A program made the translations under genes and the position numbers. 64,000 bases of DNA, taken from contig NZ_JBGGGT010000001.1 in assembly GCF_041276405.1 (NCBI RefSeq), positions 1,161,501 to 1,225,500 of the forward strand. Reading direction: 5' to 3'. The notes beneath the pieces were generated by a model. That model did not search any database. It had not been told where the DNA came from and saw nothing but the letters and a program-made list of their open reading frames with translations. Source of the stretch: Microvirga sp. TS319 (GTDB lineage: Bacteria; Pseudomonadota; Alphaproteobacteria; Rhizobiales; Beijerinckiaceae). Shown one piece after another: positions 25,592 to 42,817 of the stretch (positions are counted from its first letter, which is position 1; the number at the start of each line of letters is the position of its first letter).

Positions 25592-25697
25592 GACCCAAAT
25601 GTGGACTCCGCTTTTGAGATCGATCCGATGCTCCCTTCTTAGAATAAGCGCATCGTTCTTGCGAAAAACCGGATCCACTTTTTCGCACGAGGCGCTA
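25592..25697. repeat. Intergenic palindromic repeat, copy 3
   Basis: Same element family as at 16639, in the opposite order: GGACCCAAATGTGG, then CCGATGCTCCC, a short spacer, AGCGCATCG and the AAAAACCGGATCC palindrome ending GCGCTA. The terminal CTA is the complement of the TAG stop of the kinase-like gene on the minus strand. It fills the whole gap between two convergent genes. Confidence 0.8.
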
Positions 25698-26525: not shown

Positions 26526-26561
26526 ACCCACGGGATCCCTCCTCGATTGATCCGGCACCTG

Positions 26562-26676
26562 GCGCTTCCTGCGAAAAAGCGGACCCGGTTTTTCGCAGGA
26601 AGCGATGCGCTGTTCTATCGTGGGAGCATCGGAGGGAAGCCCAAAAGGGTGAATCCACCTCGCGCATCCGATGCTC
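26562..26676. repeat. Intergenic palindromic repeat, copy 4
   Basis: GCGCTTCCTGCGAAAAAGCGG...CGCAGGAAGCGATGCGC, then GGAGCATCGGA...TCCGATGCTC around CCCAAAAGGG. Same order as copy 2. It ends 45 bases before the stop of the RidA-type gene and begins about 30 bases upstream of the start of the streptomycin-kinase-like gene. Confidence 0.8.
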
Positions 26677-26720
26677 ACCATGAACGACAGGCATCTTACC
26701 AGGCTGTCGGAGATACGTTC

Positions 26721-27164
26721 CTATTGCCCTGAAGGTACGACAGCGGTTGCCTCAATTTCGACGAGTGCTTTCCGTTCCACCAGCCGCACGACTTGGACCA
26801 GAGCCATCGCCGGGTAATGCGCTCCAAAGACAGCCTGGTAGGCCCGACCCAGGTCACGCTGGTTGGCTAGATAATCATCGATATCGACCACATACCAGGT
26901 AAGCCGGATGAGATGCTGGGGCTTTGCTCCGCCCTCCGCGAGGATGGCACGGATGTTCTCCAACACTTGGCGCACCTGCGCGACGAGGCCTTCAGGGAAC
27001 TCGCCAGCCTCGTTCCAACCGACAACTCCGCCGGTAACGACAATCCGCCCCTCTGCCATCATTCCGTTCGAATAGCCCTTGGGAACCGGCCAGTTCTTCG
27101 GCTGCAGAATCTCGACCCCATTGTCCGGGGCCGACGTGATGGGAGAGCCTCTAGAGGCCGTCAT
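26721..27164 (-). CDS. RidA (YjgF/YER057c/UK114) family protein
   Basis: A 147-residue protein of the RidA family, with YSNGMMAEGRIVVTGGVVGW at the front and the C-terminal VVRLVERKALVEIEA containing the Arg that binds imine or enamine carboxylates in RidA. It overlaps the thioesterase stop by four bases and is the last gene of the aromatic operon. An enamine or imine hydrolase here makes sense if the pathway passes through an amino- or imino-cyclohexene-carbonyl-CoA, as in anthranilate breakdown; that role is an inference. AGGAGA is seven bases before ATG 27164, preferred over ATG 27170. Confidence 0.85.
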   Translation of the reverse strand: MTASRGSPITSAPDNGVEILQPKNWPVPKGYSNGMMAEGRIVVTGGVVGWNEAGEFPEGLVAQVRQVLENIRAILAEGGAKPQHLIRLTWYVVDIDDYLANQRDLGRAYQAVFGAHYPAMALVQVVRLVERKALVEIEATAVVPSGQ

Positions 27165-27634
27165 GGGCATTTCTCCTGATAGAGTTCCAAGGCTGCGCGA
27201 ATATCGTCGGGGAGCGGAATAGATCGATGGGTTTCTAGCGACGTTGCGACAATGACGAGTTCCGCCAGAAGCACCGGCTCGGATCCGCGCGAGGCATGGA
27301 TACGAAGCCTGAAGGATGAGCGTCCGATATCACGAACCACGACTGCAAAGTCCAGCTCATCTCCCATGAAGCCGGGCTTTGCAAACTCTGCATTGGCGTT
27401 CACATATCCCAGCCCGACCCTGCGCCTGCCGATCACTTCATGATAGTCGATTTGCAGTTCCTGGCAGAACCAGTCCTCAATGACGCCATTGAGGATGTCG
27501 AAATAGCGCGCAAAATAGACTATCCCGGCCGGATCACAGTGAGAAAACCGAATGGGAACGGTGGTGCGCCAAACCGTTTCGCCAAGCGCCGGATCCTGGA
27601 GTTTCGGCAAGCGGCTATCCAATGGGCTATCCAT
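27161..27634 (-). CDS. Acyl-CoA thioesterase, 4-hydroxybenzoyl-CoA thioesterase type
   Basis: A 157-residue hotdog-fold thioesterase. The active-site segment [19 protein letters not shown] carries the Asp and Tyr/Phe pattern of 4-hydroxybenzoyl-CoA thioesterase. It could release CoA from dead-end or final acyl-CoA intermediates of the pathway. Its start overlaps the acyl-CoA dehydrogenase stop by eight bases and its stop overlaps the RidA start by four. A longer form starting at 27676 would lie entirely over the upstream gene's end. Confidence 0.83.
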
Positions 27635-28841
27635 GCCGCACTCTGGTTGTAAGCGGGGTGCCAGAAACGGATCCATCGAGCGCTTTCAGAAGTTCGCGCG
27701 CGATCACGACCTTCTGCACTTCCGTTGCGCCCTCATAGATGCGCAGCGCGCGATTCTCACGGTAGAGCTCCTCGACCTTCACGCCCTTGGTGACCCCAAG
27801 GCCCCCGAAGATCTGGACGGCTTTGTCGATGACACTTTGAGCAGCCTCGGTAGCGTGCATCTTGGCCATCGCCGCCTCCCGCGTCACCCGAGGCGCGCCC
27901 TGGTCCTTCGTCCACGCCGCGCGGTAGACGAGGAGCGCTGCGGTATCGACATTTGTCGCCATATCCGCCAAGGCCGCCTGCGTCATCTGGAGATCAGCCA
28001 GGGGGGCCCCGAAAAGGTGACGCGACGATGCGTGACGCAAGGCCTCATCCAAGGCTCGCCGGGCAAATCCGAGCGATGCGGCTCCCACGGTCGCACGAAA
28101 AACGTCCAGGGTTGCCATGGCGACCTTGAACCCTTCTCCCGGAGCACCGATCCGTTTCGTCAAGGGGATCCTGCAACCTTCGAAACGCAGCGTTGCGAGC
28201 GGGTGCGGCGCGATTACATCGATACGCTCTTCGATGCTCAAGCCGGGTGTGTCGGCATCGACCACATAGGCAGACAATCCCTTCGCACCCGGCGCCTCGC
28301 CGGACCGTGCGAACACGATATAGTAATCTGCAATTCCCCCGTTGGAGATCCACGTCTTCAGGCCATCGATCCGTACGTGATCGGGGCCATCCGGAGTAGC
28401 GGCGGTGCTCATGGCGGCGACGTCCGAGCCGGCCTCGGGCTCTGACAGAGCAAAGGCCGCGATGGCTTCGCCGCGAGCCACTTTCGGAAGGTATTGTCGC
28501 TTCACATCCTCGGAACCAAAAAGGCTGATGGGGCCGGAGCCGAGGCCTTGCATCGCGAAGGCGAAATCCGCAAGTCCGTCCTGGTAGGCCAGTGTCTCGC
28601 GCGACAGGCATAGCGTCCGCACGTCGAGGGTCGAAGAGAGGCCGCCATAGGTTTCCGGGACAACGGCCCTCAGCCATCCATCGCCGCCAAGCTTACGCAC
28701 GAGGCGCCGACACGATTCATCTACGTCGCTATGGTCGACGAGACCATGCGTTTCGGATTCGGCCCAACTTCTCAGCGCCTCTGCATAGCCGCGGTGACGA
28801 TCATCGAAGAAGGGCCATTTCAGGAAAGTGGTGTCGATCAT
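27627..28841 (-). CDS. Acyl-CoA dehydrogenase
   Basis: A 404-residue FAD enzyme of the acyl-CoA dehydrogenase family. The substrate/FAD motifs [15 protein letters not shown] and WISNGG are clear, and the C-terminal [34 protein letters not shown] contains the catalytic-base Glu. It should oxidise a ring-derived or dicarboxylic acyl-CoA during the beta-oxidation-like lower pathway. GGGAG is seven bases before ATG 28841, one base after the hydratase stop. Confidence 0.9.
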
Positions 28842-28842
28842 G

Positions 28843-29679
28843 TCAGTCTCCCTGGAAGACTGGTTTTTCCTTCGCCGCAAAGGCTCTGTAGGCGCGAGCG
28901 AAGTCCTCCGTCGTCATGCACAGGGCCTGCGCGACAGCTTCCGCCTCGATCGCCTCCTCTACGGACATTGCCCATTCCATCGCGAGCATACGTTTGGTCA
29001 TCGTGTTGGCATAAGTCGGCCCCGACCCGATCTCATGAGCCAAGGCCTTCGCTTCACGGAGCAAGTCCGCCTCGTCGATAATACGGCTGAAAAACCCCCA
29101 GCGCTCGCCCTCCTCAGCCTTCATGAAACGGCCCGTATAGAGAAGCTCCGAGGCCCGGCCCTGTCCGATCAGACGTGGCAGGATGGCACAGGCGCCCATA
29201 TCGCAGCCGGCGAGCCCGACCTTGTTGAAAAGGAAAGCGACCTTCGCGCTTGGTGCCGCGAGCCGTAAATCGGATGCCATGGCGACGATGGCCCCCGCAC
29301 CGGCGCAGATCCCCTCGACAGCCGCGATCACCGGCTGGGGAGCCGCGCGCATGGCTTTCACCAACTCGCCGGTCATGCGCGTGAAGGCCGTCAGGCCTTT
29401 CGTATCCATCCCGACCAACGGGCCGATGATCTCGTGCACGTCGCCACCGGAGGAGAAGTTGCCGCCGGCCCCCGTTACGACGATAGCTTTGACGCTATCG
29501 TCCTTGGTACAGGCCTGAAAGAAGTCTGTCAGTTCGCGATAGCTTTCGAACGTCAGGGGGTTCTTCCTGTCGGGGCGGTTGAATGTCACCGTCGCGATCG
29601 GACCTTCGACCGACAGAAGAAAGTGACGGGGCGTATACTCGACCAGGGGCAGCCTGACTGGATTGGCGAACTGCGTCAC
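28843..29679 (-). CDS. Enoyl-CoA hydratase/isomerase family protein
   Basis: A 278-residue crotonase-fold enzyme. The CoA/oxyanion segment [15 protein letters not shown] and [20 protein letters not shown] are present. In the family such proteins hydrate enoyl-CoAs or open rings; here it probably acts on a cyclohexene-carbonyl-CoA intermediate. The start is GTG at 29679, following GGGAGAGG and overlapping the MarR stop by four bases (GTGA). The much longer open frame up to 30087 is only the shadow of the MarR gene. Confidence 0.87.
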
Positions 29680-30185
29680 GGAACCTCTCCCACGATGACA
29701 TTTCTGGCGGAAAGTTTTGTCTTGGCGAGCAGGCGCATCAGATCCTTCTGCTCCCGCTGCGTGAGGCCTCCGAAGATCTCGGCGATCCACGCCTCGTGCT
29801 CTGCAGCCATCGCGCGGAACTCCGCCCGGCCGGCCGACGTCAGGTTGATGATCTGAGCCCTCCGGTCTGTTGCGGAGACGCGGCGTTCGAGATGCCCGGA
29901 GGCAACGAGCCGGTCGACCAAGCTGGTGAGGTTGCCGTTCGACACCATCATCCGCTTCGAGAGGTCCGAGAGCGTCATCCCCTCCGGAGCCTTGTCGAGC
30001 TGAGCCATCAGATCGAAGCGGGGAAGTGTCACGTCGAACCGGTCGCGCAGACGACGACGGACCTCGCCTTCGATCAGCGTGGAGCACGTCAAGAGCCGTA
30101 GCCAGAGCCGAAGCTCGTCACGGTGGTCGTCCGGCATCTCGATGGCTTTCGTCTCGGCATCGAGCGGGATCGTCTGATGGGTCAT
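29676..30185 (-). CDS. MarR-family transcriptional regulator
   Basis: A 169-residue winged-helix regulator: [66 protein letters not shown] is split as helix-turn-helix plus wing (about residues 55-120). Unusually it is the third gene of a tightly packed catabolic operon, one base after the SDR and four bases overlapping the hydratase. MarR regulators of aromatic-CoA pathways often respond to the CoA ester. A 20-bp inverted repeat in the two main promoters of this locus is a likely target. Confidence 0.88.
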
Positions 30186-30186
30186 T

Positions 30187-30954
30187 TCAAATCTCTCCCC
30201 CAGCCACGGCGATGGCTTGGCCTGTCACGGAGCGAGCGCCCTCTCCACACAGCCACAAGACTGCATCGGCAATCTCCACCGGATCGATCAGTCTTTGCTG
30301 AGGATTGTGCTTTACCAGGTCGCTCAAAGCCTGTTCGCGGTCTCTGCCGGTCTTCGCCACGATGCGATCGAGGCTGTCGGCGACGAGATCCGTATCGGTG
30401 AAGCCGGGACAGACGGCATTGACAGTCACGCCTGTCGTGGCCGTTTCTAGTGCAAGCGCTCGTATGAAGCCGATCACCGCGTGCTTCGCCGCACAATAGG
30501 CGCTTACATAAGGGTATCCTTTCAGACCCGCCGTCGAAGCCACTGCCACGATGCGCCCGAACCGCCGCTCGATCATGGAACCGAGGACGGCATGCGTGAC
30601 ATTGGTCACGCCGAGCAAATTGACGTCCAGCATCTGTCTGAACACATCGGGAGTGGACTTCAGGAACGGAGCCGAAACCGCCGATCCGGCATTGGCGATC
30701 ATGATATCGACGGGGCCATGCCCGGAAATCGCGGCCTGAACGGCAGATCGAGCGACATCCGGATCGGTGACGTCGGCGGCAAAGGCAGCGTGAGCGTCAC
30801 CTTCTGCAACGGCGCGATCCAGCGTCGCCTGATTCCGACCAAGGATGGTGACTTTGGCGCCTTCCCGCGCAAGCGCCTTGGCAATAGCTCGACCGATGCC
30901 GCGCCCACCGCCCGTGACAATCGCGTGACGGCCCTGAAGTGGGTTCATGTTCAT
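30187..30954 (-). CDS. SDR-family oxidoreductase (3-hydroxyacyl-CoA dehydrogenase-like)
   Basis: A 255-residue NAD(P)-dependent short-chain dehydrogenase. It has the cofactor motif TGGGRGIG (about 15-22), the NAG motif (IANAGSAVS), a catalytic Ser in VASTAG and the YCAAK active-site Tyr and Lys. By context it oxidises or reduces a hydroxy/oxo ring intermediate bound to CoA. It starts one base after the monooxygenase/reductase stop. Confidence 0.88.
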   Translation of the reverse strand: MNMNPLQGRHAIVTGGGRGIGRAIAKALAREGAKVTILGRNQATLDRAVAEGDAHAAFAADVTDPDVARSAVQAAISGHGPVDIMIANAGSAVSAPFLKSTPDVFRQMLDVNLLGVTNVTHAVLGSMIERRFGRIVAVASTAGLKGYPYVSAYCAAKHAVIGFIRALALETATTGVTVNAVCPGFTDTDLVADSLDRIVAKTGRDREQALSDLVKHNPQQRLIDPVEIADAVLWLCGEGARSVTGQAIAVAGGEI

Positions 30955-30955
30955 A

Positions 30956-33310
30956 TCATTCCGCGGCGAGGGGCTTCCCGCCGGCCTCCATCTTCAATTC
31001 GGCTCGGGTCTTCGGCTTGGCCTTGATCCTCAGCTCATCCAGGTCCTGCCGATCGCGAATGCTGTTGCGGAAGATCTGGTCCCTCCCGGCGAGGTATTGC
31101 GGCGGGCAGAATGTGTCCTTCGCGCCGTACCACGCGGCCGCCTTCATGGTGAAGAACGGGTCCGTCAGATGGGGACGTGCCAGCGCGACCAGATCGGCCC
31201 GTCCTGCCGCCAGGATGGTGTTGACCTGATCGCCTGTCGTGATGTTGCCGACGCACATGGTGGCGACCTGCGCCTCATTGCGCACCTGATCGGAGAAAGG
31301 CGTCTGGAACATGCGCCCATAGATCGGCCGCGCCTCCCGCACAGTTTGCCCCGCTGAGACATCGACGAGGTCGACACCATGCTCGGCAAAGGCGCGCGCG
31401 ATCTCGACAGCATCTGCGCCTGTAATGCCACCCTCGGCCCAGTCGGTCGCGGAAATGCGGACCGACATGGGCTTGTGCGCCGGCCAGACCTCTCGCATGG
31501 CATCAAAGACTTCCAGCGGATAGCGCAGGCGGTTCACCAGGGAGCCGCCATACTCATCCGTGCGTCGATTGGTGAGCGGAGAGATGAAGCTCGCCAGCAG
31601 GTAGCCGTGGGCGCAATGGAGCTCGAGCATGTCGAAACCTGCCCGGTCGCCTCTCCTCGTCGCATCGACGAACTGAGTCTTGATGACGTCCATGTCGGCG
31701 CGGGTCAGCTCTCGCGGGACCTGGCTGTCCGGAAAATACGGAATCGGAGAGGCCGAGCAGATATCCCAAGCCCCGCTCTCGAGGGGGCGGTCGATTCCTT
31801 CCCACATGAGCTTCGTGGCGCCCTTGCGACCTGCGTGCCCAAGCTGCAGACAGAACTTGGCGGCGGAATTGCCATGGACGAAGTCGACGACGCGTTTCCA
31901 GGCGGCCTCCTGATCATCGTTCCACAAACCTGCGCAGCCGAGGGTGATACGAGATTCCGGCGAGACGCATGTCATCTCAGTGAAGATCAGCCCCGCACCT
32001 CCCGTCGCGCGCGAGCCGTAGTGAACGAGGTGCCAGTCGCCAGGAATGCCATCTTCGGCCGAATACATATCCATCGGAGAGACGACCACGCGATTTTCGA
32101 GGATCATGTCACGAAGCCGGAACGGCTGGAACATCGGCACGCTCGGTTTCTCGACCGATACGTCGAAACCCTTTCTCCTCACCTGCTGCGCGAATGTGCG
32201 ATCCACGGCAGCCACGAAATCCGGCGCGCGCAGACGCAGGTTGTCGTAAGTGATCGCTTTGGCGCGGGTCATCACCCCGAAGGCGAACTGCACCGGTTCG
32301 AAGTCCCAGAAGCGGGCGACATGCTCGAACCAGACGAGGGACACATCGGCGGCGTGCTGGGTCTTCTCGACCTCCTCGCGCCGACCGGTTTCGTAGAACG
32401 ACAAGGCCCGTTCGACATTCGAGTCACGGCGGAAGGCTTCGTAAAGAGCGATGGCGTCCTCCATGGCGAGCTTGGTGCCCGACCCGATGGAGAAGTGGGC
32501 CGAGCCCTTCGCATCGCCGATCAGGACCTTGTTCCCCAAGACCCAGCGCTTGTTGCGGATCATCGGGAAATTGCGCCACAGGGAACGATTGGTGAGAATC
32601 TTGTGCCCGTTCAGGAACCAGCCGAAGATCTGCTCCATGAGGGCCGCGGATTCCTCCTCCGTTTTCTGCCCGAGCCCGGCGCGGTCGAACGTTTCGGGAT
32701 CCGTCTCGAAAACCCAGGTGGAACGGTCAGCCTCGTACTGGTAGGCATGGGCGATGAACGGTCCCCATTCAGTCTCCTGGAAGATGAAGGTGAAGGCGTC
32801 GAGCGGCCTGGTCGATCCCATCCAGGCGAACTTGTTGGGCCTCAGATCCACCTCAGGCTGGAAGTGATCGGCATAGCGCTCCCGGAAGCGGCTGTTGATG
32901 CCATCGGCGACGACAACGAGGTCCGCATCGGCGAACAGGCTCTCGTCGTCGACATCCACCTGATAGAGCAGCCTGACGCCGAGCTCCTCTGCGCGATCCT
33001 GCAGGATCAGCAGCAGCGTGCGGCGCGAGCAGCCGCAAAACCCGTTACCCCCGATGCGGTGCTCGGTCCCCTTGAAATGGATTGCGATATCGTCCCAATA
33101 GGCAAACTCGCGCGTGATCCTCTGATAGCTCGGCAGATCGTATTTCTCGAAACCGTCGAGGGTCGCATCGGAAAAGACCACGCCGAATCCGAAGGTATCG
33201 TCCGCGCGATTGCGCTCATAGACCGTGATATCCGCTCCCGGCTGGAGCTTCTTCATCAGAATGGCGAAATAGAGACCCGCAGGCCCCCCGCCGATGATCG
33301 CCGTTTTCAT
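30956..33310 (-). CDS. Bifunctional aryl-CoA monooxygenase/reductase (2-aminobenzoyl-CoA or salicylyl-CoA type)
   Basis: A 784-residue two-domain flavoenzyme. Residues 1 to about 385 form a group A FAD monooxygenase ([15 protein letters not shown] dinucleotide fold; [17 protein letters not shown] second FAD motif). Residues of about 395-760 form an Old Yellow Enzyme-type NADH:flavin reductase ([35 protein letters not shown]). This exact fusion is known from 2-aminobenzoyl-CoA monooxygenase/reductase of Azoarcus evansii and salicylyl-CoA 5-hydroxylase. It would hydroxylate and dearomatise the aryl-CoA. It heads the operon, and its promoter carries the 20-bp inverted repeat at 33339. Confidence 0.88.
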
Positions 33311-33338
33311 GCGAAGACGTCTCCAAGGGAAGATGGAT

Positions 33339-33358
33339 TTATTTTAAGCATAAAATAA
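33339..33358. promoter_or_regulatory. 20-bp inverted repeat, candidate MarR operator, copy 1
   Basis: TTATTTTA, AGCA, TAAAATAA: exact 8-bp arms 29 bases upstream of the monooxygenase/reductase start. A near-identical sequence occurs at 35373 between the ligase and transporter genes. Shared sequence in both control regions of one locus is what a pathway-specific operator looks like. Confidence 0.65.
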
Positions 33359-33463
33359 TTGCGAGGCAACTCCGGATCGGGATAAACCCGATGGACGGTG
33401 CCGAATTGAACGTTTGCGCTACCATTGTTCCTTCTAGGAACCATGGTGAAGTCGTGTTCATGT

Positions 33464-33479
33464 TCAGACGCTTGTCTGA
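33464..33479. other. Small inverted repeat after the ligase gene
   Basis: TCAGAC-GCTT-GTCTGA, a 6-bp perfect stem with four-base loop, in the 234-base gap between the ligase stop and the monooxygenase/reductase start. It could be a weak terminator for the ligase transcript or a second protein-binding site. No gene is visible in the gap. Confidence 0.35.
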
Positions 33480-33544
33480 CGCGTCGTCACTATGACCCGG
33501 ATAGGAGAACATGAGAGACGGCCCTCCCGCTCGGCCTGATCCCC

Positions 33545-35188
33545 TCACGAGATAATGGTCTCGTGGGATTGCTGCGCGGCCAACTGGCGAAGCTGGAACC
33601 GCTGGAGCTTCCCGGTCTGCGTACGGGGAAGGGCATCGACGTATTCGATGAGGCGCGGATATTTGTAAGGCGCGATCTCCGCCTTCACGTGATCCTGCAG
33701 CGCCTTCGTCAGTTCGGCGCTTGGCCTGGCGTCGGAGCGCAGGACCACATAGGCCTTCACGACAGCTCCACGCCCGTCGTCGGGAGCCCCGACAACGCCG
33801 CATTCGGCGATCGCCGGATGGGTGAGGAGCGCCGCCTCGACCTCTGGCCCCGCGATGTTGTAGCCCGCCGAGATGATCATGTCGTCGGAGCGAGCCTGGT
33901 ACCAGAAGAAGCCATCCTCATCCATGAGGTAGGTGTCGCCGGTGACGTTCCACCCATTCTGCACATATTTGCGCTGCCGCTCGTCGGCGAGATATCGGCA
34001 CCCGGTCGGACCCCGGACCGCGAGGCGGCCGATGCTGCCGGGAGGAAGGGGGCGCCCCTCATCGTCGATGATCCTCGCCTCGTAACCGGGAACAGGCCTT
34101 CCGGTTGCGCCCGGGCGGATCTCCTCCTCCGTCGCGGCGATGAAGATGTGGAGCATCTCCGTCGCGCCGATCCCGTCCATCAGCTTGAGGCCCGTTGCAT
34201 TCCTCCAGCTGTCGAATGTGTCCTTGGGGAGCGGCTCTCCCGCGGACACGCATCTCCGCAGCGAAGAGAAATCGTGGTTTTCCAACTTGGCCAGCATGGC
34301 GCGATAGGCGGTCGGCGCCGTGAAGCAGATCGTGGCCCCATATTGCGCGATCGCCGGAAGGAGATCATCGGGCCCCGCCCTTTCCAGAAGAACCGTCGAG
34401 GCCCCTACCCTCATGGGAAACAGGACGAGCCCGCCGAGCCCGAAGGTGAAGGCCAGGGGCGGCGAGCCGATGAAGCGGTCGGTCGGCTCGGGGCGAAGCA
34501 CGTTGCCGGAATAGGCATCGCAGATCGCCAGCATGTCCCGATGGACATGCATGGTGCCCTTCGGCTCGCCGGTCGTACCGGACGTGAAGGCGATGAGGCA
34601 CACATCGTCCGCCGCCGTGTCGACCGCATCGAATTCGGGCGAAGCCTCGGCGATCAGCGCCTCGAGCCCGTCGGGCCGGTCCGAACCCCAATACGCCACA
34701 TGCCGCAGTTCCGGCGCCATGACCCTCGCCCGCTCCATCTCGTCCGAGAGGCGATGATCGCACAGCGCGATGCCGATCCCGGCCTTGTTCAGCGGAAAGG
34801 CGATTTCCCTGGCGCGCAGCAACGGCATCGTGGCGACGACCACGCCGCCCGCCTTCAGCACGGCCAGATAGGCTGCAACCATCATCGGGTTGTTGGCGGA
34901 GCGGAGCAGAACACGATTGCCCGGCACGAGGCCGAACCGGTGCACGAGGACGTTGCAGATCCGGTTCACGCGCTCCTGGAGTTCGCGGTAGGTGAGCGTC
35001 TCGGCAGGGCTGATGAGACAGGGCTCATTGCCCCTGCCCTCATCGACCCATCGGTCGAGGAAGGCCACGGCGCAGTTGAGCCGTTCCGGATACTGAAGCT
35101 CCGGACGGTTCAGCAGGAAAGCCGGCCATTGATCCCGCGGCGGAAGATTGTCCCGTGTGAAGGTATCGACATGTGCCGTGTGCGCCAT
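33545..35188 (-). CDS. Benzoate-CoA ligase family protein (probable 2-aminobenzoate-CoA ligase)
   Basis: A 547-residue adenylate-forming ligase. The AMP-binding motif is TSGTTGEPKGTM, followed by the GIGATEMLHIF motif of the benzoate-CoA ligase subfamily and GDTYLMDEDGFFWYQARSDDMI; the C-terminal acyl-transfer Lys lies in PRTQTGKLQRF. It would activate an aromatic acid with ATP and CoA in the cytosol. Pairing with the monooxygenase/reductase points to anthranilate as substrate. GAGGAAAC eight bases before ATG 35188 sets the start; the open frame extends further but without a site. Confidence 0.88.
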   Translation of the reverse strand: MAHTAHVDTFTRDNLPPRDQWPAFLLNRPELQYPERLNCAVAFLDRWVDEGRGNEPCLISPAETLTYRELQERVNRICNVLVHRFGLVPGNRVLLRSANNPMMVAAYLAVLKAGGVVVATMPLLRAREIAFPLNKAGIGIALCDHRLSDEMERARVMAPELRHVAYWGSDRPDGLEALIAEASPEFDAVDTAADDVCLIAFTSGTTGEPKGTMHVHRDMLAICDAYSGNVLRPEPTDRFIGSPPLAFTFGLGGLVLFPMRVGASTVLLERAGPDDLLPAIAQYGATICFTAPTAYRAMLAKLENHDFSSLRRCVSAGEPLPKDTFDSWRNATGLKLMDGIGATEMLHIFIAATEEEIRPGATGRPVPGYEARIIDDEGRPLPPGSIGRLAVRGPTGCRYLADERQRKYVQNGWNVTGDTYLMDEDGFFWYQARSDDMIISAGYNIAGPEVEAALLTHPAIAECGVVGAPDDGRGAVVKAYVVLRSDARPSAELTKALQDHVKAEIAPYKYPRLIEYVDALPRTQTGKLQRFQLRQLAAQQSHETIIS

Positions 35189-35372
35189 CGTTGTGTTTCC
35201 TCTGGTTCCGCCTGACAGACGACGAACCGCGAGGAGTGATGTGGCTGGAATCGACCTCTTTCGGGACAATGCGCAGCTTCACAATCACCAGAGCCTCGGC
35301 CGGGGTCCGCCGTTCAAGCCCCTCCTGCCACCTGCTTGTTGACCGAAGAATTCGGGTGGCTCTATTGCCGAT

Positions 35373-35392
35373 TTATTTAAAGCCTAAAATAT
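35373..35392. promoter_or_regulatory. 20-bp inverted repeat, candidate MarR operator, copy 2
   Basis: TTATTTAA, AGCC, TAAAATAT, matching the site at 33339 at 17 of 20 positions. It lies in the 383-base divergent region between the ligase gene (minus) and the transporter operon (plus), so one site could serve both. The rest of that region has no gene. Confidence 0.6.
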
Positions 35393-35571
35393 TTCTTGGC
35401 AATCCCGGAGATCGAATCTAACATTCCTTCATTGTCGAAAACGGAGTATTCGACAGGGGCGTTTTACGGCAGTATAGCGCCGACCTTCCGTCGAGGCGTC
35501 TGAACGTCCCGTCGGGAACAACGATGCAGCACGGCAAACGTGCGCAGGGAACAGCGACTCGGGAGACCATG

Positions 35572-36747
35572 ATGAACGTGACGATCAAGACCCTTGGCCT
35601 GGCAGCGGCCGTGACACTGGCGGCGGCTCCGGCCATGGCGCAGGAGAAGCTGAAGATCGGCCTGCTCCTGACCCTCTCCGGCCCTTCGGCCGTTCTCGGG
35701 CAGCATGCGCGGGACGGATTCCAGCTCGCCGTGAAGGATCATGGCGGCAAGCTGGGTGGACGGGATGTCGAAGTGATCGTCGTCGACGACGAGCTGAAGC
35801 CCGATGTGGCGGTCACGAAGGTCAAAGGTCTTCTGGAGCGCGACAAGGTCGACTTCGTCGTCGGTCCGATCTTCTCGAACGTGGCGGTCGCCACCCACAA
35901 GCCGATCGTCGATTCGAAGACGTTCTACATCAGCGTGAACGCCGGCCCCTCGAATCTCGCCGGCAAGAGCTGCAATCCTTACTTCTTCGCCACCTCCTAC
36001 CAGAACGACCAGAACCACGAGGTCCTCGGCAAGGTGGCCCAGGACCGCGGCTACAAGAAAGTTTATCTGCTCGCTCCGAACTATCAGGCCGGCAAGGATG
36101 CCCTCGCGGGCTTCAAGCGCCACTACAAGGGCGAGATCGTCGAGGAATCCTATGTTCCTCTCAACACCCTGGATTTCCAGTCGGAGCTTGCGAAGATCGC
36201 TTCCATGCAGCCCGACGCGATCTTCACCTTCATGCCGGGCGGCATGGGCGTGAACCTCGTCAAGCAGTATCGCGCCGCAGGCCTTGCCGACCGCATTCCG
36301 TTCCTGTCCGCCTTCACGGTCGACGAGACCAACCTGCCCGCTCAGCAGGACGCCGCCATTGGCATGCTCAGCGGCTCGAACTGGGCTCCCAACATGGACA
36401 CCCCAGAAAACAAGAAGTTCGTCGCGGCCTATGAGGCGGCCTACAACACGGTGCCTGCCTCCTACGCCATGCACGCCTATGACGCCGCCCTTCTCATCGA
36501 CAGCGCCCTCAGGGCGACGGGCGGCAAGACCGATGACAAGGAAGCCCTGCGCGCAGCCCTCCAGAAGGCGGATTTCAAATCCCTGCGCGGTGACTTCAAG
36601 TTCGGAGTGAACGGCTTCCCGATCCAGGACTTCTATCTCGTGAAGGCCGCCAAGCGCCCGGACGGCAAGCTCGAGACGGAAGTGGTGGACAAGGTGTTCG
36701 ACGACTACACGGACGCCTATGCCAAGGAATGCGCCCCCACGAACTGA
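35572..36747 (+). CDS. Branched-chain-type ABC transporter, substrate-binding protein
   Basis: A 391-residue exported binding protein of the LivJ/LivK type (family 4). The signal peptide is about 1-24 (ending AMAQ). The mature start KLKIGLLLTLSGPSAVLGQHARDGFQLAV and GGRDVEVIVVDDELKP are typical. Members of this group next to aromatic-CoA genes often bind aromatic acids, so anthranilate or a related acid is a fair guess. Two ATGs (35569, 35572) follow GGGAG; spacing favours 35572. A stem-loop follows. Confidence 0.9.
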   Translation: MNVTIKTLGLAAAVTLAAAPAMAQEKLKIGLLLTLSGPSAVLGQHARDGFQLAVKDHGGKLGGRDVEVIVVDDELKPDVAVTKVKGLLERDKVDFVVGPIFSNVAVATHKPIVDSKTFYISVNAGPSNLAGKSCNPYFFATSYQNDQNHEVLGKVAQDRGYKKVYLLAPNYQAGKDALAGFKRHYKGEIVEESYVPLNTLDFQSELAKIASMQPDAIFTFMPGGMGVNLVKQYRAAGLADRIPFLSAFTVDETNLPAQQDAAIGMLSGSNWAPNMDTPENKKFVAAYEAAYNTVPASYAMHAYDAALLIDSALRATGGKTDDKEALRAALQKADFKSLRGDFKFGVNGFPIQDFYLVKAAKRPDGKLETEVVDKVFDDYTDAYAKECAPTN

Positions 36748-36763
36748 GGTGTGAAGAGATGGG

Positions 36764-36798
36764 CCTGTCTGCTCCCGGCACGGTCTCGGGCAGACAGG
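36764..36798 (+). terminator. Stem-loop between binding-protein and permease genes
   Basis: CCTGTCTGC and GCAGACAGG pair as a 9-bp stem, with CCCG/CGGG able to extend pairing inside the loop. It is 16 bases after the binding-protein stop and about 90 before the permease start, without a clear T run. Probably an mRNA-stabilising or attenuating hairpin. Confidence 0.55.
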
Positions 36799-36889
36799 TT
36801 CCCGCCTTTCACCGCATGAGCGTTCCTCTCTTGCGTGAGTGCCCGGGCGGGCACTCGCCCGATCCAGGCCTGCTGCCGATGATGTGCCT

Positions 36890-37810
36890 ATGACTGCGAC
36901 ATTCTTTGCGATTCAGGCTCTGAACGGCCTTCAGTTTGGCCTCATTCTCTTTCTCATCGCGGCCGGATTGACCCTCGTCTTCGGAGTGATGGACTTCATC
37001 AACCTGGCGCATGGCGTTCAGTACATGGTCGGCGCCTATCTGGTCGCCGCCTTCAGCGCCTGGACGGGGAGCTTCGGCTGGGGCCTTCTTCTCGCGCTCC
37101 CGACCGCCCTCGCCTTCGGCCTTCTGCTCGAAGTGCTCATCTTCCGCCATCTCTACGACCGGAGCCATCTCGACCAGGTTCTCGCGACCTTCGGGGTGAT
37201 CCTGTTCCTGAACCAGGCCGTGAAATTCGTCTGGGGGGCGGCTCCGTTGAGCGTGCCCGTGCCGGAGATCCTGTCGGGTTCGGTGGAGATCATGGACGGT
37301 CTTCTCTATCCGGTTTACCGCATCGCCATCATCGCGGCGGGCCTTCTCGTGGCGGCGCTCCTCTATGTCCTCGTCAGCCACACACGCGTCGGGATGCTGG
37401 TACGCGCGGGGGCCACGAATGCCGCGATGGTGTCGGCTCTCGGCGTCAATATCCGGCGACTTTTCATGATCGTTTTCGGCTTCGGGGCCATGCTCGCCGG
37501 CTTTGCCGGGGCCATGGTGGCGCCGATCCTTTCCGTGCAGCCCGGCATGGGCGACAACATCCTCATCCTGGCCTTCGTGGTGATCGTGATCGGCGGCATC
37601 GGTTCGATCCGCGGGGCCTTCCTGGCGGCACTCCTGATCGGTCTCGTGGACACGCTCGGACGCTCGTTCGCGCCCAACCTGCTGCGCCTCGTCCTCGACC
37701 CGTCGGCCGCGAGCCAGACCGGGCGGGCGATCGCCCCGATGCTGATCTACATCTTCATGGCCGCCGTGCTGTTCTTCCGCCCCTCCGGTCTGTTCCCGGC
37801 GAAGCGATAA
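36890..37810 (+). CDS. Branched-chain-type ABC transporter permease (LivH type)
   Basis: A 306-residue inner-membrane permease with about eight helices. Family marks are LNGLQFGLILFLIAAGLTLVFGVMDFINLAHG near the N-terminus and the cytoplasmic loop YVLVSHTRVGMLVRAGATN, then VIVIGGIGSIRGAF. The start at 36890 gives the normal N-terminus; the open frame begins earlier at 36839, inside the leader, and no strong ribosome site was found for either. Confidence 0.9.
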   Translation: MTATFFAIQALNGLQFGLILFLIAAGLTLVFGVMDFINLAHGVQYMVGAYLVAAFSAWTGSFGWGLLLALPTALAFGLLLEVLIFRHLYDRSHLDQVLATFGVILFLNQAVKFVWGAAPLSVPVPEILSGSVEIMDGLLYPVYRIAIIAAGLLVAALLYVLVSHTRVGMLVRAGATNAAMVSALGVNIRRLFMIVFGFGAMLAGFAGAMVAPILSVQPGMGDNILILAFVVIVIGGIGSIRGAFLAALLIGLVDTLGRSFAPNLLRLVLDPSAASQTGRAIAPMLIYIFMAAVLFFRPSGLFPAKR

Positions 37811-37820
37811 AGGCGGAGCA

Positions 37821-38852
37821 ATGACAGAACTGACTCACATCCGGTCTGCCTCCGTACCGTCCGCGGCTGCGCGGATCGACCTTCTGCCCGTCCTCATCTT
37901 CGCCCTGTTCGCGGCAGCGCCCTTCCTGGCACCGGCATCCGGAGCGGAAGGTTATGTGCTGTCGCTCCTCACCCGCGTGATGATCTTCGGCATTGCGGCC
38001 ATGTCGCTCGATCTCATCCTCGGCTACGGCGCACTCGTGAGCTTCGGCCACGCGGCCTTCTTCGGCATCGGGGCCTATTCGGTGGGAATCCTGGCGAGCC
38101 ACGGCATCGAGGATGCGCTCATTCAGGTTCCCGTCGCCCTCGCGGCATCGGCCCTCTTCGCCGCGGTGACGGGCGCGATCTCGCTGCGGACGAAGGGGGT
38201 GTACTTCATCATGATTACCCTCGCCTTCGCACAGATGCTCTACTTCCTCGCCTCGTCGCTGGCCGCCTATGGCGGAGACGACGGCCTGACGCTTCCATCG
38301 CGCAGCCTCGTGGCTGGCTTGAGCCTTCTGAAGAACGACTTCGGGCTCTACGGCGTGACCCTCGCGTGCCTTCTCGGCGTCTATATCCTGTTGAGGTCGG
38401 TCGTGAACTCCCGCTTCGGACGCGTCCTGCGGGGAACGAAGGAGAACGTCACCCGCATGGAAGCCATCGGTTTCCAGCCCTTCTCCTTTCAGCTCATGGC
38501 CTATGTGATCAGCGGCATGATCGCGGGCTTGGCCGGATGCCTCCTGGCCAATCAGGCGGAATTCGTCAGCCCGGCCTTCATGACATGGCAGCGCTCGGGC
38601 GAACTGATCTTCATGGTCGTACTCGGCGGGCTCGGCTCGCTTCATGGCGCGATCATCGGCGCGGCCGCCTATCTCCTCATGGAGGAATTCCTGCCGGAGA
38701 TCCTTCATGCGGCCGGCTTCTTCCTGAACGACGAATTCCGCTGGCGGCTGACGGAAAACTGGCAGATGGTCTTCGGCCCTCTCCTGATCCTGACCGTGCT
38801 GTTCGCCCGCGGCGGCATCACGGGTCTCCTGCGGCGGGGCCACCATGGCTGA
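37821..38852 (+). CDS. Branched-chain-type ABC transporter permease (LivM type)
   Basis: A 343-residue inner-membrane partner permease. It has LDLILGYGALVSFGHAAFFGIGAYSVGIL, the TKGVYFIMITLAFAQMLYF segment and the loop SRFGRVLRGTKENVTRMEAIGF characteristic of LivM. GGCGGAG precedes the ATG. Its stop overlaps the ATPase start by eight bases. Confidence 0.92.
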   Translation: MTELTHIRSASVPSAAARIDLLPVLIFALFAAAPFLAPASGAEGYVLSLLTRVMIFGIAAMSLDLILGYGALVSFGHAAFFGIGAYSVGILASHGIEDALIQVPVALAASALFAAVTGAISLRTKGVYFIMITLAFAQMLYFLASSLAAYGGDDGLTLPSRSLVAGLSLLKNDFGLYGVTLACLLGVYILLRSVVNSRFGRVLRGTKENVTRMEAIGFQPFSFQLMAYVISGMIAGLAGCLLANQAEFVSPAFMTWQRSGELIFMVVLGGLGSLHGAIIGAAAYLLMEEFLPEILHAAGFFLNDEFRWRLTENWQMVFGPLLILTVLFARGGITGLLRRGHHG

Positions 38853-39600
38853 ACCTCTCCTGCAACTGCACGGCCTCCGGAAGACCTATGGCGCCTTCGT
38901 CGTCACCGACGATGTGAACCTCTCCGTTCGCCCCGGCGAGCTGCACGCCATCATCGGCCCCAACGGCGCGGGCAAAACGACGCTCATTCATCAGATCTCG
39001 GGCACTCTGAGCCCCGATTCGGGACAGGTCCTGTTTGACGGCGAGGACGTCACCCATCTGCCCATGCACCAGCGGGTCCGGCGGGGGCTTGCCCGCTCAT
39101 TCCAGATCACGTCGATTTTGCCCGCGTTCTCGGCTCTCGAAAACGTGGCGCTCGCCATTCAGGCCCGCTCGGGATCGAGCTTCCGCTTCTTCGGCGACGC
39201 GGCCCGGGAGAGAGCGCTCAACGACGCCGCCATGGACTATCTGAGCATGGTCGGGATCGCCCCCCGCGCCCGGATCGCCGCGGGTCTCCTGTCCCATGGG
39301 GAAAAGCGGCAGCTCGAACTTGCGATTGGACTTGCGACGCAACCGAAGCTGCTCCTCCTCGACGAGCCGCTGGCGGGCACGGGTCACGAGGAATCGCTGC
39401 GCGTGGTCGAAACCCTGCAGCGCCTCAAGAGCCGCATCACCATCATGCTGATCGAACACGACATGGATGCGGTCTTCTCCCTCGCGGACCGCGTCAGCGT
39501 CCTCGTCTACGGGCGCGTGATCGCCACCGACACGCCGGAGCGCATCAGGGCGAACGAGGAGGTCCGGGCCGCCTATCTGGGTGAGGGGGAGGTTGTCTAG
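38845..39600 (+). CDS. Branched-chain-type ABC transporter ATPase (LivG type)
   Basis: A 251-residue ATPase with Walker A GPNGAGKTT, the LSHGEKRQLELAIGLA signature (LSHGE variant common in LivG), Walker B LLLLDEPLAG and the C-terminal VLVYGRVIATDTPERIRANEEVRAAYLGE. Its TAG stop overlaps the GTG start of the LivF-type gene by one base. Confidence 0.93.
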   Translation: MAEPLLQLHGLRKTYGAFVVTDDVNLSVRPGELHAIIGPNGAGKTTLIHQISGTLSPDSGQVLFDGEDVTHLPMHQRVRRGLARSFQITSILPAFSALENVALAIQARSGSSFRFFGDAARERALNDAAMDYLSMVGIAPRARIAAGLLSHGEKRQLELAIGLATQPKLLLLDEPLAGTGHEESLRVVETLQRLKSRITIMLIEHDMDAVFSLADRVSVLVYGRVIATDTPERIRANEEVRAAYLGEGEVV

Positions 39601-40298
39601 TGCTGTCCGTCCGACATCTGCAGGCATCCTACGGTGCGGCCCAGGTCCTGTTCGACGTCTCCCTCGATGTGGGTGCCGGCGAAGTGGTGACGCTGCTCGG
39701 GCGCAACGGCATGGGCAAGACCACGACCATCAAGTCCATCATGGGCCTGTTGCGCCCACGGGGCGGCGAGATCCGGTTCGGCGGAGCGGTCGTGACGGGT
39801 CTCGCACCCTACAGGGTCGCGCAGACCGGCATCGGCCTCGTTCCGGAGGGGCGGCAGATCTTCCCGACCCTGACGGTCGAGGAAAATCTCGTTGCGACCG
39901 CCGCCTCACGGGCGGGGGCGCGTCGCTGGAACCTGAACGAGGTCTATGCGCTTTTTCCGCGATTGAAGGAGCGCCGGAGCAATCTCGGGACGCAACTGTC
40001 CGGCGGCGAGCAGCAGATGCTGGCGGTGGGCCGGGCGCTCATGACCAACCCGAAGCTCCTCATCCTCGACGAGGCGACCGAAGGGCTCGCTCCCCTGATC
40101 CGCGCGGAGATCTGGTCGTGCCTCAAGCGCCTGCGGGACGAGCGCCAGTCGATCCTGGTGATCGACAAGAACGTGGACGTGCTGGCAAGTTTCGCCGACC
40201 GGCACGTCATCATCGAGAAGGGCCGCTCGGTCTGGACGGGCACAAGTGCGGAACTCGTGGCTGATCCCGCGATCAAGGAACGGTATCTCCACGTCTGA
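39600..40298 (+). CDS. Branched-chain-type ABC transporter ATPase (LivF type)
   Basis: A 232-residue ATPase: Walker A GRNGMGKTT, signature LSGGEQQMLAVGRAL, Walker B LLILDEATEGLAP. It starts with GTG at the last base of the preceding gene. It completes a five-part importer with one binding protein, two permeases and two ATPases. Confidence 0.92.
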   Translation: MLSVRHLQASYGAAQVLFDVSLDVGAGEVVTLLGRNGMGKTTTIKSIMGLLRPRGGEIRFGGAVVTGLAPYRVAQTGIGLVPEGRQIFPTLTVEENLVATAASRAGARRWNLNEVYALFPRLKERRSNLGTQLSGGEQQMLAVGRALMTNPKLLILDEATEGLAPLIRAEIWSCLKRLRDERQSILVIDKNVDVLASFADRHVIIEKGRSVWTGTSAELVADPAIKERYLHV

Positions 40299-40366
40299 GG
40301 CGACGATGTGCGTCGGAATGGACATCGACAGGCACGAATACGGCTCCGACACTGAAGGGTGGATCA

Positions 40367-41221
40367 ATGCTCTATCGTGGAATGGACCAGGCCGCGCTGG
40401 ATGCGGCCTACGACAATCCCCGCGCGGTCGGACTGTCGACCCTGCAGGCCATGATGGCCGACTGGATCGCCCGCGGCCAGGAGATAGCATCATCCGGCCG
40501 CCTCACGGAGATCCGCTATGGCGAAGGAGAGCGGAATCGCATCGATGTTTTCGCGGCGCCCCGCGATGCAAGCTTCCAGGGCCGAGCGACGCTCGCCTTC
40601 ATCCATGGCGGCTATTGGAGAAGCCAGGAGAAGGAGACCTATCGCTTTCTCGCGAAGGGGGCTCTCGCGCGCGGACTGAACTTCGCGAATATCGAATACA
40701 CCCTCGCGCCCCAAAAGACCCTCGGCGGAATCGTTCTGGAGATCAGGGATGCGATCGCCTGCCTGAACAGGCACCTTGCCCAGGTCACGCCCGATCATGC
40801 GACCCTTCACATCTCCGGCCACTCGGCCGGGGGCCATCTCGTGGCGATGAACCTCGATGAGAAGGGCGTCGGGAGCGGCACGTCCATCAGCGGGATCTTC
40901 GATCTGGAGCCGATCCGCCTGAGCTATCTCGACGAGGCGCTGAGGCTGACGCCCGAGGATGTGGTTCGCTACAGCCCGCAGCGTCACATCCCCGCCTCCT
41001 CCCCTCCTCTCATCATCGCCTACGGCGAGGAGGAACTTCCGGAGCTCCGCCGGCAGTCGGAAGAGTTCCACTCCGCCCGGAAGGCCAACAAGCTCGTTTC
41101 CCCCTTTGTCCCTCTTTCCGGACACAATCATTTCAGCATCCTCGAGGAGCTGGCGAACCCGGAAGGTCTGATCCTGAAGGAGATCGTCACCCAGATGGCA
41201 GGGCGGTCTCCTACGCGATAA
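40367..41221 (+). CDS. Alpha/beta hydrolase, kynurenine formamidase (arylformamidase)-like
   Basis: A 284-residue esterase-fold protein. The oxyanion motif HGGYW (80-84), nucleophile elbow GHSAGGH with Ser153, and a late GHNHFSIL His match the alpha/beta-hydrolase type of kynurenine formamidase. That enzyme converts N-formylkynurenine to kynurenine, two steps before anthranilate. As the last gene of a transporter operon facing an anthranilate-type CoA pathway, it may extend the route to formylated aromatic amines. The substrate is inferred; a carbamate or ester hydrolase is an alternative. Confidence 0.78.
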   Translation: MLYRGMDQAALDAAYDNPRAVGLSTLQAMMADWIARGQEIASSGRLTEIRYGEGERNRIDVFAAPRDASFQGRATLAFIHGGYWRSQEKETYRFLAKGALARGLNFANIEYTLAPQKTLGGIVLEIRDAIACLNRHLAQVTPDHATLHISGHSAGGHLVAMNLDEKGVGSGTSISGIFDLEPIRLSYLDEALRLTPEDVVRYSPQRHIPASSPPLIIAYGEEELPELRRQSEEFHSARKANKLVSPFVPLSGHNHFSILEELANPEGLILKEIVTQMAGRSPTR

Positions 41222-41236
41222 GGCCAGAGCACGGAC

Positions 41237-42817
41237 CTATCTCAGATCCAGCCTGCGCGTGACGCCAATCGCCTCCAGGAATCTCTCGTCGTGACTGACG
41301 ATGAGCAGCGCACCGTCATAGCCCCGCAATCCGGCCTCGACCGCTTCGATGGAATCGATGTCGAGATGGTTCGTCGGCTCGTCGAGGATCAGGAGAGAGG
41401 GCGGCCGCGGCCCGCCCAGAACGCAGGCCAGACCGGCACGAAGCATCTGCCCTCCGCTGAGGCTGGAAACGACCTGGAGCGCGGCATCGGCCCGGAACAT
41501 GAACCGGGCGAGAGTGGCCCGGCAGGCATTCTCATGAGCGCCCGGATTGATGCGCCGGAAGTTGTCTCGGATCGACGCCAACGGGTCCAGAAGGCTCACG
41601 CGCTGGTCGAACGTCGCGAAGTCGGTCATGACCTGCACGGACCCGGTCCAGGGCCGCAGCCGTCCGGTGACAAGGGACAGAAGGGTCGTCTTGCCGGATC
41701 CGTTGGGCCCCATGATGGCCACACGTTCGGGCCCGCTGACGGTCAGCGAAAGATCTTTGAGGATCGGCCGCTCAGGCTCGTAACCCGCGCTCGCGCCGTC
41801 GATCCTCAGCACCGTCTTGCCGGCCGGCAGATGGGTCGGCGGGAGTACGAACGAGAGGGGTTGCAGCACCTCGATGCGGTCGCGGGCGGAGGCTGCCGCC
41901 TCGAGGGCCTGCCCCCGGCGCCGTTCGGCCAAGCGCGTGGCCTCTCCGGCCGTGTCCTCGCTCCGGTCCTTTCGAAGCCCCATGAGGATCTTGGGCATAT
42001 CGCCCTTCGCGCTCTTCTTCCGGCCCGCTCCGTCCTTGCGCGCCTTCCTCTCCGCCGTCTCCTGCGCCTTCCGGTCGATCTCCGAGACACGCTTCTCGGC
42101 ATCCGCCAGATCACGCCTGGCAGCTGCGAGCTCGAAGGCCTTGCGCTCACGGTATCGGCTCCAGTTGCCGCCATAACGCGTGGCGCCCAGCGAGGTCAGT
42201 TCGACGATGGCGTCCATGGCGTCGAGCAGCTCCCGGTCGTGGCTCACGACGACCGCTCCGCCCCGCCAAGCGGCGAGCAGGTCGATCACGGCCTGACGCC
42301 CCTCCCGGTCGAGATTGTTCGTCGGCTCGTCGAGAAGCAGGAAGTCCGGCTCCGCGAAGATGAGGGCGGCAAGACGGGCCCGTGTGTTCTGGCCGCCCGA
42401 CAACGCAGCGAGGCGCGTTTCCGGCTCCGCGGACAGGCCGACGCGGCCGAGAGCCGCCGCGACGCGGGCCTCCAGCATCCAGTCGGCACGTGCGAGCTCA
42501 TCAGCCGTGGCTTCGCCGCGGTCCGCACGCCGGAGAACGGCCAGCGCTTCGGCGATGCCGAACAGGCCGGCGACGGTTTCATCCGGATCGGCCTGAACGG
42601 TCTGGCGCAGAACACCTAGGCTGCCGTTGACGGTGACCGTGCCTGAATGAGGGCGCATGTCACCGGCGATCAACTTGAGAAGCGTCGTCTTTCCCACACC
42701 GTTGCGGCCGACAAGTCCCGTCCGCTCGGCGCTGAATTTCAGATCGACATGGGACAGAAGGGTTTGATGGTCAGGCGTGGACCAGGACAGATGGGAGAGC
42801 GAAATTGAGGCAGGCAT
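41237..42817 (-). CDS. ABC-F family ATPase
   Basis: A 526-residue soluble protein with two ABC domains and no membrane segments. Walker A sequences are GRNGVGKTT and GPNGSGKTT, and signatures are LSGGQNTRARL and LSGGQMLRAGL; Walker B lines read LLLDEPTNNLD and LILDEPTNHLD. A Lys/Arg-rich linker joins them (around RKARKDGAGRKKSAKGD). ABC-F proteins act on ribosomes, in translation rescue or antibiotic protection; which one applies here is unknown. The start at 42817 is set by homology-like N-terminus MPASISLSHLSWSTPD; the frame stays open upstream without family features. It is convergent with the hydrolase gene, only 15 bases apart. Confidence 0.9.
   Translation of the reverse strand: MPASISLSHLSWSTPDHQTLLSHVDLKFSAERTGLVGRNGVGKTTLLKLIAGDMRPHSGTVTVNGSLGVLRQTVQADPDETVAGLFGIAEALAVLRRADRGEATADELARADWMLEARVAAALGRVGLSAEPETRLAALSGGQNTRARLAALIFAEPDFLLLDEPTNNLDREGRQAVIDLLAAWRGGAVVVSHDRELLDAMDAIVELTSLGATRYGGNWSRYRERKAFELAAARRDLADAEKRVSEIDRKAQETAERKARKDGAGRKKSAKGDMPKILMGLRKDRSEDTAGEATRLAERRRGQALEAAASARDRIEVLQPLSFVLPPTHLPAGKTVLRIDGASAGYEPERPILKDLSLTVSGPERVAIMGPNGSGKTTLLSLVTGRLRPWTGSVQVMTDFATFDQRVSLLDPLASIRDNFRRINPGAHENACRATLARFMFRADAALQVVSSLSGGQMLRAGLACVLGGPRPPSLLILDEPTNHLDIDSIEAVEAGLRGYDGALLIVSHDERFLEAIGVTRRLDLR

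Follow-up and report, generated by a model that had tools for sequence, protein, structure and literature searches.

Which compound is degraded by the genes in the two divergent arms at positions 26721-41221 of the Microvirga sp. TS319 window (the whole 64,000-nucleotide (nt) stretch of DNA that was analysed), and are both arms placed under a common control? Anthranilate is a product of tryptophan breakdown. A coenzyme A (CoA)-dependent pathway for this compound is described in a review (PMC4539516). We assign the locus, with a probability of about 0.77, to this known aerobic CoA-dependent anthranilate (abm-type) pathway as a Microvirga representative, its two divergent arms apparently forming a single MarR regulon. 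The pathway itself is known; what is new here is the predicted control site shared by both arms, together with hints of a hydrolase link to tryptophan breakdown.

The locus lies on one of the two contigs of the 6.26-Mb host genome and is composed of minus-strand catabolic genes (26721-35188) and a plus-strand arm with the importer and a hydrolase (35569-41221). The following features were predicted, with start codons throughout being the likeliest choices (lengths in amino acids, aa):

26721-27170, minus strand: RidA/YjgF-family protein, 149 aa (Pfam PF01042, 1.7e-21; TIGR00004, 3.1e-16, below cut-off)
27161-27634, minus strand: 4HBT-type hotdog acyl-CoA thioesterase, ATG at 27634 chosen (Pfam PF13279, 2e-14)
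27627-28841, minus strand: acyl-CoA dehydrogenase (Pfam Acyl-CoA_dh_1/M/N)
28843-29679, minus strand: enoyl-CoA hydratase family protein, GTG start (NF006107/PRK08258, 462.9 bits, cut-off 330)
29676-30185, minus strand: MarR-family regulator, 169 aa (Pfam MarR_2, 2.9e-12; PDB 3boq MarR, 6.9e-23)
30187-30954, minus strand: short-chain dehydrogenase/reductase (SDR; Pfam adh_short, 1.6e-58)
30956-33310, minus strand: flavin adenine dinucleotide (FAD) monooxygenase/Old Yellow Enzyme fusion of the 2-aminobenzoyl-CoA monooxygenase/reductase type, 784 aa (NF006101, 1141 bits, cut-off 1078)
33339-33358, no strand: operator-like near-perfect palindrome TTATTTTAAGCATAAAATAA before the fusion gene (genome pattern scan)
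33545-35188, minus strand: aryl (benzoate/anthranilate-type) CoA ligase, 547 aa from ATG (TIGR02262, 384 bits, cut-off 375)
35373-35392, no strand: weaker, imperfect palindrome copy between ligase and importer (genome pattern scan)
35569-36747, plus strand: periplasmic substrate-binding protein (SBP), start uncertain, the open reading frame (ORF) opening at 35524 (solved relatives)
36884-37810, plus strand: LivH-type permease (NCBIfam UrtB/LivH families)
37821-38852, plus strand: LivM-type permease (NCBIfam scan)
38845-39600, plus strand: LivG-type ATPase (NCBIfam scan)
39600-40298, plus strand: LivF-type ATPase (NCBIfam scan)
40367-41221, plus strand: alpha/beta hydrolase of the kynurenine-formamidase/Lipase 1 superfamily (triad S153-E223-H255, oxyanion motif HGGYW)

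All of the genes named in an earlier note on this DNA were found, and those from the fusion to RidA are spaced by 1-nt gaps or overlaps of 4-10 nt, but the MarR regulator gene inside the catabolic operon had been overlooked there. The fusion and ligase genes are 234 nt apart with a palindrome inside the gap, and the ligase may therefore have a transcript of its own. ORF 33339-33803 on the minus strand matched no family and was treated as spurious.

The reading of the locus as a CoA-dependent anthranilate pathway, proposed in the same note, is supported by the fusion, the ligase, the beta-oxidation set and the gene context. The fusion is full length, contains no internal stops and is the sole NF006101 match above cut-off in the genome. 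The closest solved protein to the ligase is the anthranilate-CoA ligase 4wv3 (5.3e-104), and the ligase adjoining the fusion on plasmid pAL1 is 54.5% identical to it over 541 aa. In the pAL1 report, anthranilate-CoA ligase activity was measured for the pAL1 ligase and a chromosomal paralogue after expression in E. coli, and C7H8O4-CoA, consistent with a deaminated product, was detected in anthranilate-grown cells (PMC3534580); the pAL1 ligase compared here was equated with the assayed one by gene order. SDR, hydratase and acyl-CoA dehydrogenase are all located within the operon, as in abm-type loci. The closest solved relatives of the SBP were 4evq (1.2e-56), 4zpj, 4evs, 4ey3 and 4f06, ahead of leucine- and urea-binding proteins; several of these structures reportedly contain hydroxybenzoate-type ligands.

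The following course of degradation is proposed. The importer would take up the aromatic acid, and the ligase would form 2-aminobenzoyl-CoA. Then, the fusion would hydroxylate and reduce this thioester to 2-amino-5-oxocyclohex-1-ene-1-carbonyl-CoA, an enamine whose deamination RidA probably accelerates. A beta-oxidation-like ring opening would be finished by SDR, hydratase and acyl-CoA dehydrogenase, and the thioesterase would release CoA from stalled intermediates. The terminal alpha/beta hydrolase would remove the acyl group from acylated anthranilate or from an acylated precursor of it. MarR would repress both arms via the palindromes at 33339 and 35373 and would be released by a CoA thioester of the pathway, by analogy with CouR (PMC4737184).

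The MarR gene is separated from the SDR gene by 1 nt and overlaps the enoyl-CoA hydratase gene by 4 nt. A 25-nt repeat (88% identical), the core of which is the palindrome, is common to the intergenic regions on either side of the ligase gene. At up to 3 mismatches, the palindrome occurs in only two places in the 6.26-Mb genome, 33339 and 35373; a control with the backwards pattern gave 0 matches, and none were found in 100 shuffles of the 64-kb window. The predicted -10 element of the catabolic operon, based on a consensus match only, falls within the palindrome.

In relatives, the palindrome was sought within 400 nt upstream of each gene with up to 5 mismatches allowed, and upstream stretches shorter than 100 nt were skipped. 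It was present before the fusion gene in 27 of 30 Microvirga loci, in 49 of 50 Bradyrhizobium/Tardiphaga loci, and in 14/16 higher-identity and 15/22 lower-identity loci of the order (two Bradyrhizobium-like order loci, L039 and L040, were placed in neither group); these loci are related and the counts are hence not independent. The shuffled-letter control gave 0-1.4% for the fusion upstreams and 0-3.6% over all upstream counts. Before the SBP gene, the palindrome was found in all 28 Microvirga loci having SBP and in 45 of 48 Bradyrhizobium/Tardiphaga loci. Within Microvirga, where MarR and SDR are intra-operon, it precedes MarR in 0/29 and SDR in 1/29 loci; the corresponding values for Bradyrhizobium/Tardiphaga are 45/48 and 44/50, and the gene order there suggests that MarR and SDR begin a transcript. 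The ligase gene, being late in the operon in two groups of order loci, has no palindrome before it in either (0/15 and 0/14). Across gene rearrangements, the palindrome stays with the promoters. Since it is limited to two genome sites and marks the same promoters in relatives, both arms look like a single MarR regulon, with MarR as the putative repressor. The regulon is testable, comprising one MarR protein, one palindrome and two arms that are conserved in related Rhizobiales loci.

To assess the distribution of the locus, 150 genomes of the order were surveyed. At least 44 of them, the genome under study included, contained a near full-length fusion, a few of them with internal stops. From the other 43 fusion loci, 40 were fetched (G106, G112 and G050 were left out). 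Homologues of the window genes were counted with identity cut-offs set by the analyst, genes beyond the stretch of up to 20 kb being counted as missing: SDR in 37 loci, MarR in 35, RidA in 35, hydratase in 34, ligase in 31, acyl-CoA dehydrogenase in 30, LivH in 8, SBP in 7, thioesterase in 6, hydrolase in 5, tryptophan dioxygenase in 5 and canonical kynureninase in 2. The same gene set, which the earlier note had recommended seeking in relatives, recurs wholly or largely in Microvirga, Bradyrhizobium, Paracoccus and others, and this recurrence places it beyond chance. The thioesterase gene was found in just three (L094, L102 and L104) of the 30 named abm loci of Microvirga and hence seems dispensable in the genus.

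Two Microvirga loci, L098 and L099, stand apart. Their SDR, MarR and RidA are 81-93% identical to those of the window, against about 69-80%, 75-84% and 68-74%, respectively, in most other Microvirga outside L079-L081. For the ligase, fusion and importer, by contrast, the identity is within the usual 79-92%, and their hydrolase belongs to the other type. This suggests possible mosaic loci formed by recombination within the genus.

The presence of RidA had been considered a new addition to such a pathway. This was not borne out, since RidA accompanies the fusion across the order (the 35 of 40 loci above) and occurs together with the ligase and the fusion in all six named plasmid loci (pAL1, pRLCBG43, Paracoccus, Ruegeria, Thalassospira and Phyllobacterium); it is a regular component of abm loci. 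The arginine of the v-x-R-L motif (v-a-R-L here), which we take to be catalytic, aligned with that of E. coli YjgF (1qu9) and three others. The 2001 abstract of Schuhle et al. on Azoarcus evansii is reported to list a binding protein and a MarR regulator as well as a putative 'translation inhibitor', an older name for the RidA family; the associated binding protein is likewise not new. A literature search covering sources outside most subscription journals found no report joining aminobenzoyl-CoA with RidA or formamidase for such a locus.

The other addition proposed earlier was a formamidase linking the locus to tryptophan breakdown. The AlphaFold model of the hydrolase (predicted local distance difference test (pLDDT) 90) was most similar in Foldseek to Lipase 1 of Pseudomonas chlororaphis (9n8r, template-modelling (TM) score 0.89), followed by 2pbl (0.80) and the Drosophila kynurenine formamidase (KFase) 4e11 (0.79); among the best 50 matches, general esterases ranked below these three with TM of at most 0.67. 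The catalytic triad was assigned from the alignment with 4e11, and S153, E223, H255 and H80-G82 (HGG) are invariant in all 31 aligned proteins, including those of pAL1, Paracoccus, Ruegeria and Thalassospira. The hydrolase is the sole match of its kind in the genome (E value up to 0.001).

In a tree of 56 hydrolases, the window protein and three close Microvirga proteins fall within an 11-row clade (100/97), which also holds Lipase 1, the Paracoccus protein and plasmid genes away from abm loci. Another clade, of 36 rows (98/95), includes the proteins in the same slot of 24 other named Microvirga loci, L212, 2pbl, Drosophila KFase 4e11 and all five dioxygenase-linked rows. Matches shorter than 150 aa, that of L158 included, were dropped; some branches are long, and the placement of pAL1, BG43 and 4e11 is unsure. 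It seems, judging from this tree, that the slot in the window lineage was filled by a substitute from another subfamily than in most Microvirga loci. The window-type hydrolase was found in four other genomes of the genus (G161, G166, G170 and G187); all four have a kynureninase-like gene and three have no second hydrolase. This pattern fits a takeover of function without proving it. In Geminicoccaceae and Methylobacterium (L173 and L176), window-type hydrolases occur in another catabolic setting, flanked by a metallohydrolase gene on one side and, on the other, by a xanthine-dehydrogenase-type gene set accompanied by a Liv importer.

Several loci combine a hydrolase of the kynurenine-formamidase/Lipase 1 superfamily with genes for tryptophan breakdown. 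The abm loci of Thalassospira, L068 and L074 contain it together with dioxygenase and kynureninase, and that of Ruegeria together with dioxygenase. In Microvirga pudoricolor, the importer is directly followed by the hydrolase, a dioxygenase and a kynureninase-like gene, and a palindrome (3 mismatches) lies between ligase and importer. In L051, from another family of the order, dioxygenase-like (32-34%) and kynureninase-like genes overlap by 4 nt and adjoin the abm operon; the latter protein is 58% identical to that of the window's genome, where a tryptophan dioxygenase gene (above cut-off) adjoins the kynureninase-like gene on the other contig. An apparent absence of kynureninase from this genome was thereby overturned, the dioxygenase-adjoining gene carrying a KYNU_C domain (L166:10454-11620; Pfam KYNU_C 49.8, cut-off 27). 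Relatives of this protein are variously named 'kynureninase', 'selenocysteine lyase/cysteine desulfurase' and 'aminotransferase class V', and its model (pLDDT 78) matched SufS-type desulfurases at ranks 1-9, kynureninase 1qz9 at rank ten and PvdN at rank 32. We flag this family, encoded next to tryptophan dioxygenase and present in 43 of 48 Microvirga genomes, as overlooked by the standard model. Both the hydrolase and the kynureninase-like gene occur in 41 of the 48 genomes, only the kynureninase-like gene in 2, only the hydrolase in 1 and neither in 4; the Fisher p value of 0.0004 ignores kinship and was not relied upon. The metal-dependent bacterial formamidase KynB (TIGR03035) gave no matches in the window's genome; across the genus, 0 of 48 genomes were above cut-off and 9 had weak matches.

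A number of observations weigh against this interpretation of the locus. The window hydrolase lies outside the clade of dioxygenase-linked hydrolases and groups with Lipase 1. The hydrolase is present in 27 of the 30 named Microvirga loci (L107 and L126 lack the gene, and the stretch of L091 ends early), the dioxygenase in only one. Among the five order loci with a dioxygenase of more than 45% identity, the fetched stretches of L071 and L075 contain no hydrolase, and that of L072 is about 14 kb away. The kynureninase-like gene scores 28.1 bits on TIGR01814 (cut-off 246.4) and was missed by two kynureninase searches of the genome. There is no palindrome at the tryptophan dioxygenase gene (genome scan, up to 3 mismatches), and 7 of the 22 more distant order loci have none before the fusion. 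Finally, the NCBIfam label of the fusion family is salicylyl-CoA 5-hydroxylase, and therefore the substrate of the fusion is not fixed by its sequence alone.

The formamidase link thus has comparative support from the loci sharing hydrolase, dioxygenase and kynureninase, but it is not established for the window gene, because its hydrolase falls outside the dioxygenase-linked clade; we consider it plausible. N-formylkynurenine is the single likeliest substrate of the hydrolase, although at slightly under even odds, and would be supplied by the unlinked tryptophan dioxygenase/kynureninase-like pair; N-acylanthranilates come next. More tentatively, a full route from tryptophan via anthranilate to the CoA pathway may exist in Microvirga. 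The animal-type alpha/beta hydrolase, ending the importer arm under the MarR palindrome, would be the missing formamidase, the kynureninase would belong to a divergent family missed by the standard model, and a Lipase 1-type hydrolase would have taken over in the same slot in the window lineage. The hydrolase is a concrete formamidase candidate for bacteria with tryptophan dioxygenase but without a clear KynB.

Alternatively, within the same anthranilate locus the hydrolase may be an N-acylanthranilate amidase or aryl esterase (Amq/AqdA-like) freeing anthranilate from imported N-acetyl-, N-formyl- or longer acyl-anthranilates, which we hold to be a serious possibility without expecting it. The window protein is 28.6% identical over 276 aa to an alpha/beta hydrolase that pAL1 encodes next to its quinaldine genes, presumably the amidase Amq, and 24.5% over 212 aa to the hydrolase near aqdC1 of Rhodococcus BG43, which we take to be AqdA. 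Ligase, fusion and RidA are likewise encoded on each of these plasmids, and the pAL1 protein, if it is Amq, suggests that the superfamily also serves N-acylanthranilates. A position at the end of the importer arm would suit a step right after uptake, and the clade of the window hydrolase takes in Lipase 1 and genes in unrelated settings. However, the slot is mostly occupied by KFase-clade proteins in the genus, with dioxygenase and kynureninase-like genes coming after it in one species, and none of the scanned window genes was recognised as a quinoline or quinolone gene.

Two further explanations concern the aromatic acid itself. The family label of the fusion would suit a salicylate locus, in which salicylyl-CoA is 5-hydroxylated and released as gentisate, but we consider this very improbable: the ligase is closest to anthranilate-CoA ligases, some related loci hold kynurenine-pathway genes, and no gentisate 1,2-dioxygenase was found among the scanned genes of 23485-43768, the rest of the window and the genome not having been searched. 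In addition, the reductive Old Yellow Enzyme half, RidA and the beta-oxidation genes would presumably have no role there. Another ortho-substituted or heteroaromatic acid, e.g. a substituted anthranilate or an indole-derived acid, might be degraded by the same chemistry; the substrate range of the ligase and importer is unreadable from sequence, and the fusion is just 53% identical to that of pAL1 and 54% to that of Paracoccus denitrificans, versus 67-81% to other members of its group in the order. This is improbable as well, given that ligase, fusion and RidA are shared with the named plasmid loci, as are MarR and the beta-oxidation genes with those outside actinobacteria.

With regard to the surroundings of the locus, RidA is adjoined by an APH(6)-I family aminoglycoside phosphotransferase-like protein gene (25695-26681, minus strand; NF033614, 524.8 bits, cut-off 460), preceded by an FGGY carbohydrate kinase and a class II aldolase in an apparent sugar operon (23485-25591, plus strand). 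On the other side are genes for an ABC-F type protein (41237-43033, minus strand; ribosomal-protection-like model, 350.9 bits, slightly below the cut-off of 380) and a DUF6766 protein (43088-43768, plus strand).

The locus was compared with known systems. The abm clusters of Azoarcus (Aromatoleum) evansii, studied by Schuhle et al. in 2001, reportedly include three beta-oxidation genes besides MarR, binding protein and 'translation inhibitor' genes. CoA ligase, the monooxygenase/reductase fusion and beta-oxidation are common to these clusters and the window; the complete five-gene importer, the terminal alpha/beta hydrolase and the divergent two-arm layout presumably distinguish the window. 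Plasmid pAL1 of Arthrobacter sp. Rue61a (L160) likewise carries RidA, ligase (54.5%), fusion (53%) and an alpha/beta hydrolase, but it has PaaX-type regulators and quinaldine genes, and neither MarR nor a Liv importer is present in the stretch shown. Plasmid pCSC3H3 of Thalassospira marina (L164) resembles the window in its fusion, SDR, MarR, hydratase, dehydrogenase, ligase, thioesterase and RidA and in having an alpha/beta hydrolase gene that diverges from them; unlike the window, it holds kynU and kynA within the operon and no Liv importer in the stretch shown, and its hydrolase is of the KFase clade and 30% identical to that of the window. Drosophila kynurenine formamidase 4e11 shares with the window hydrolase the fold (TM 0.79), the HGGYW oxyanion motif and the serine nucleophile, whereas Glu223 of the window protein aligns to an Asp of the fly enzyme, the identity is 22%, and the window protein belongs to the neighbouring Lipase 1 clade. 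Although its genes all run in one direction and its fusion and hydrolase are 54% and 40% identical to those of the window, respectively, plasmid 1 of Paracoccus denitrificans PD1222 (L162) contains the fusion, SDR, MarR, hydratase, dehydrogenase, thioesterase, RidA, ligase, SBP, four Liv genes and an alpha/beta hydrolase, as does the window.

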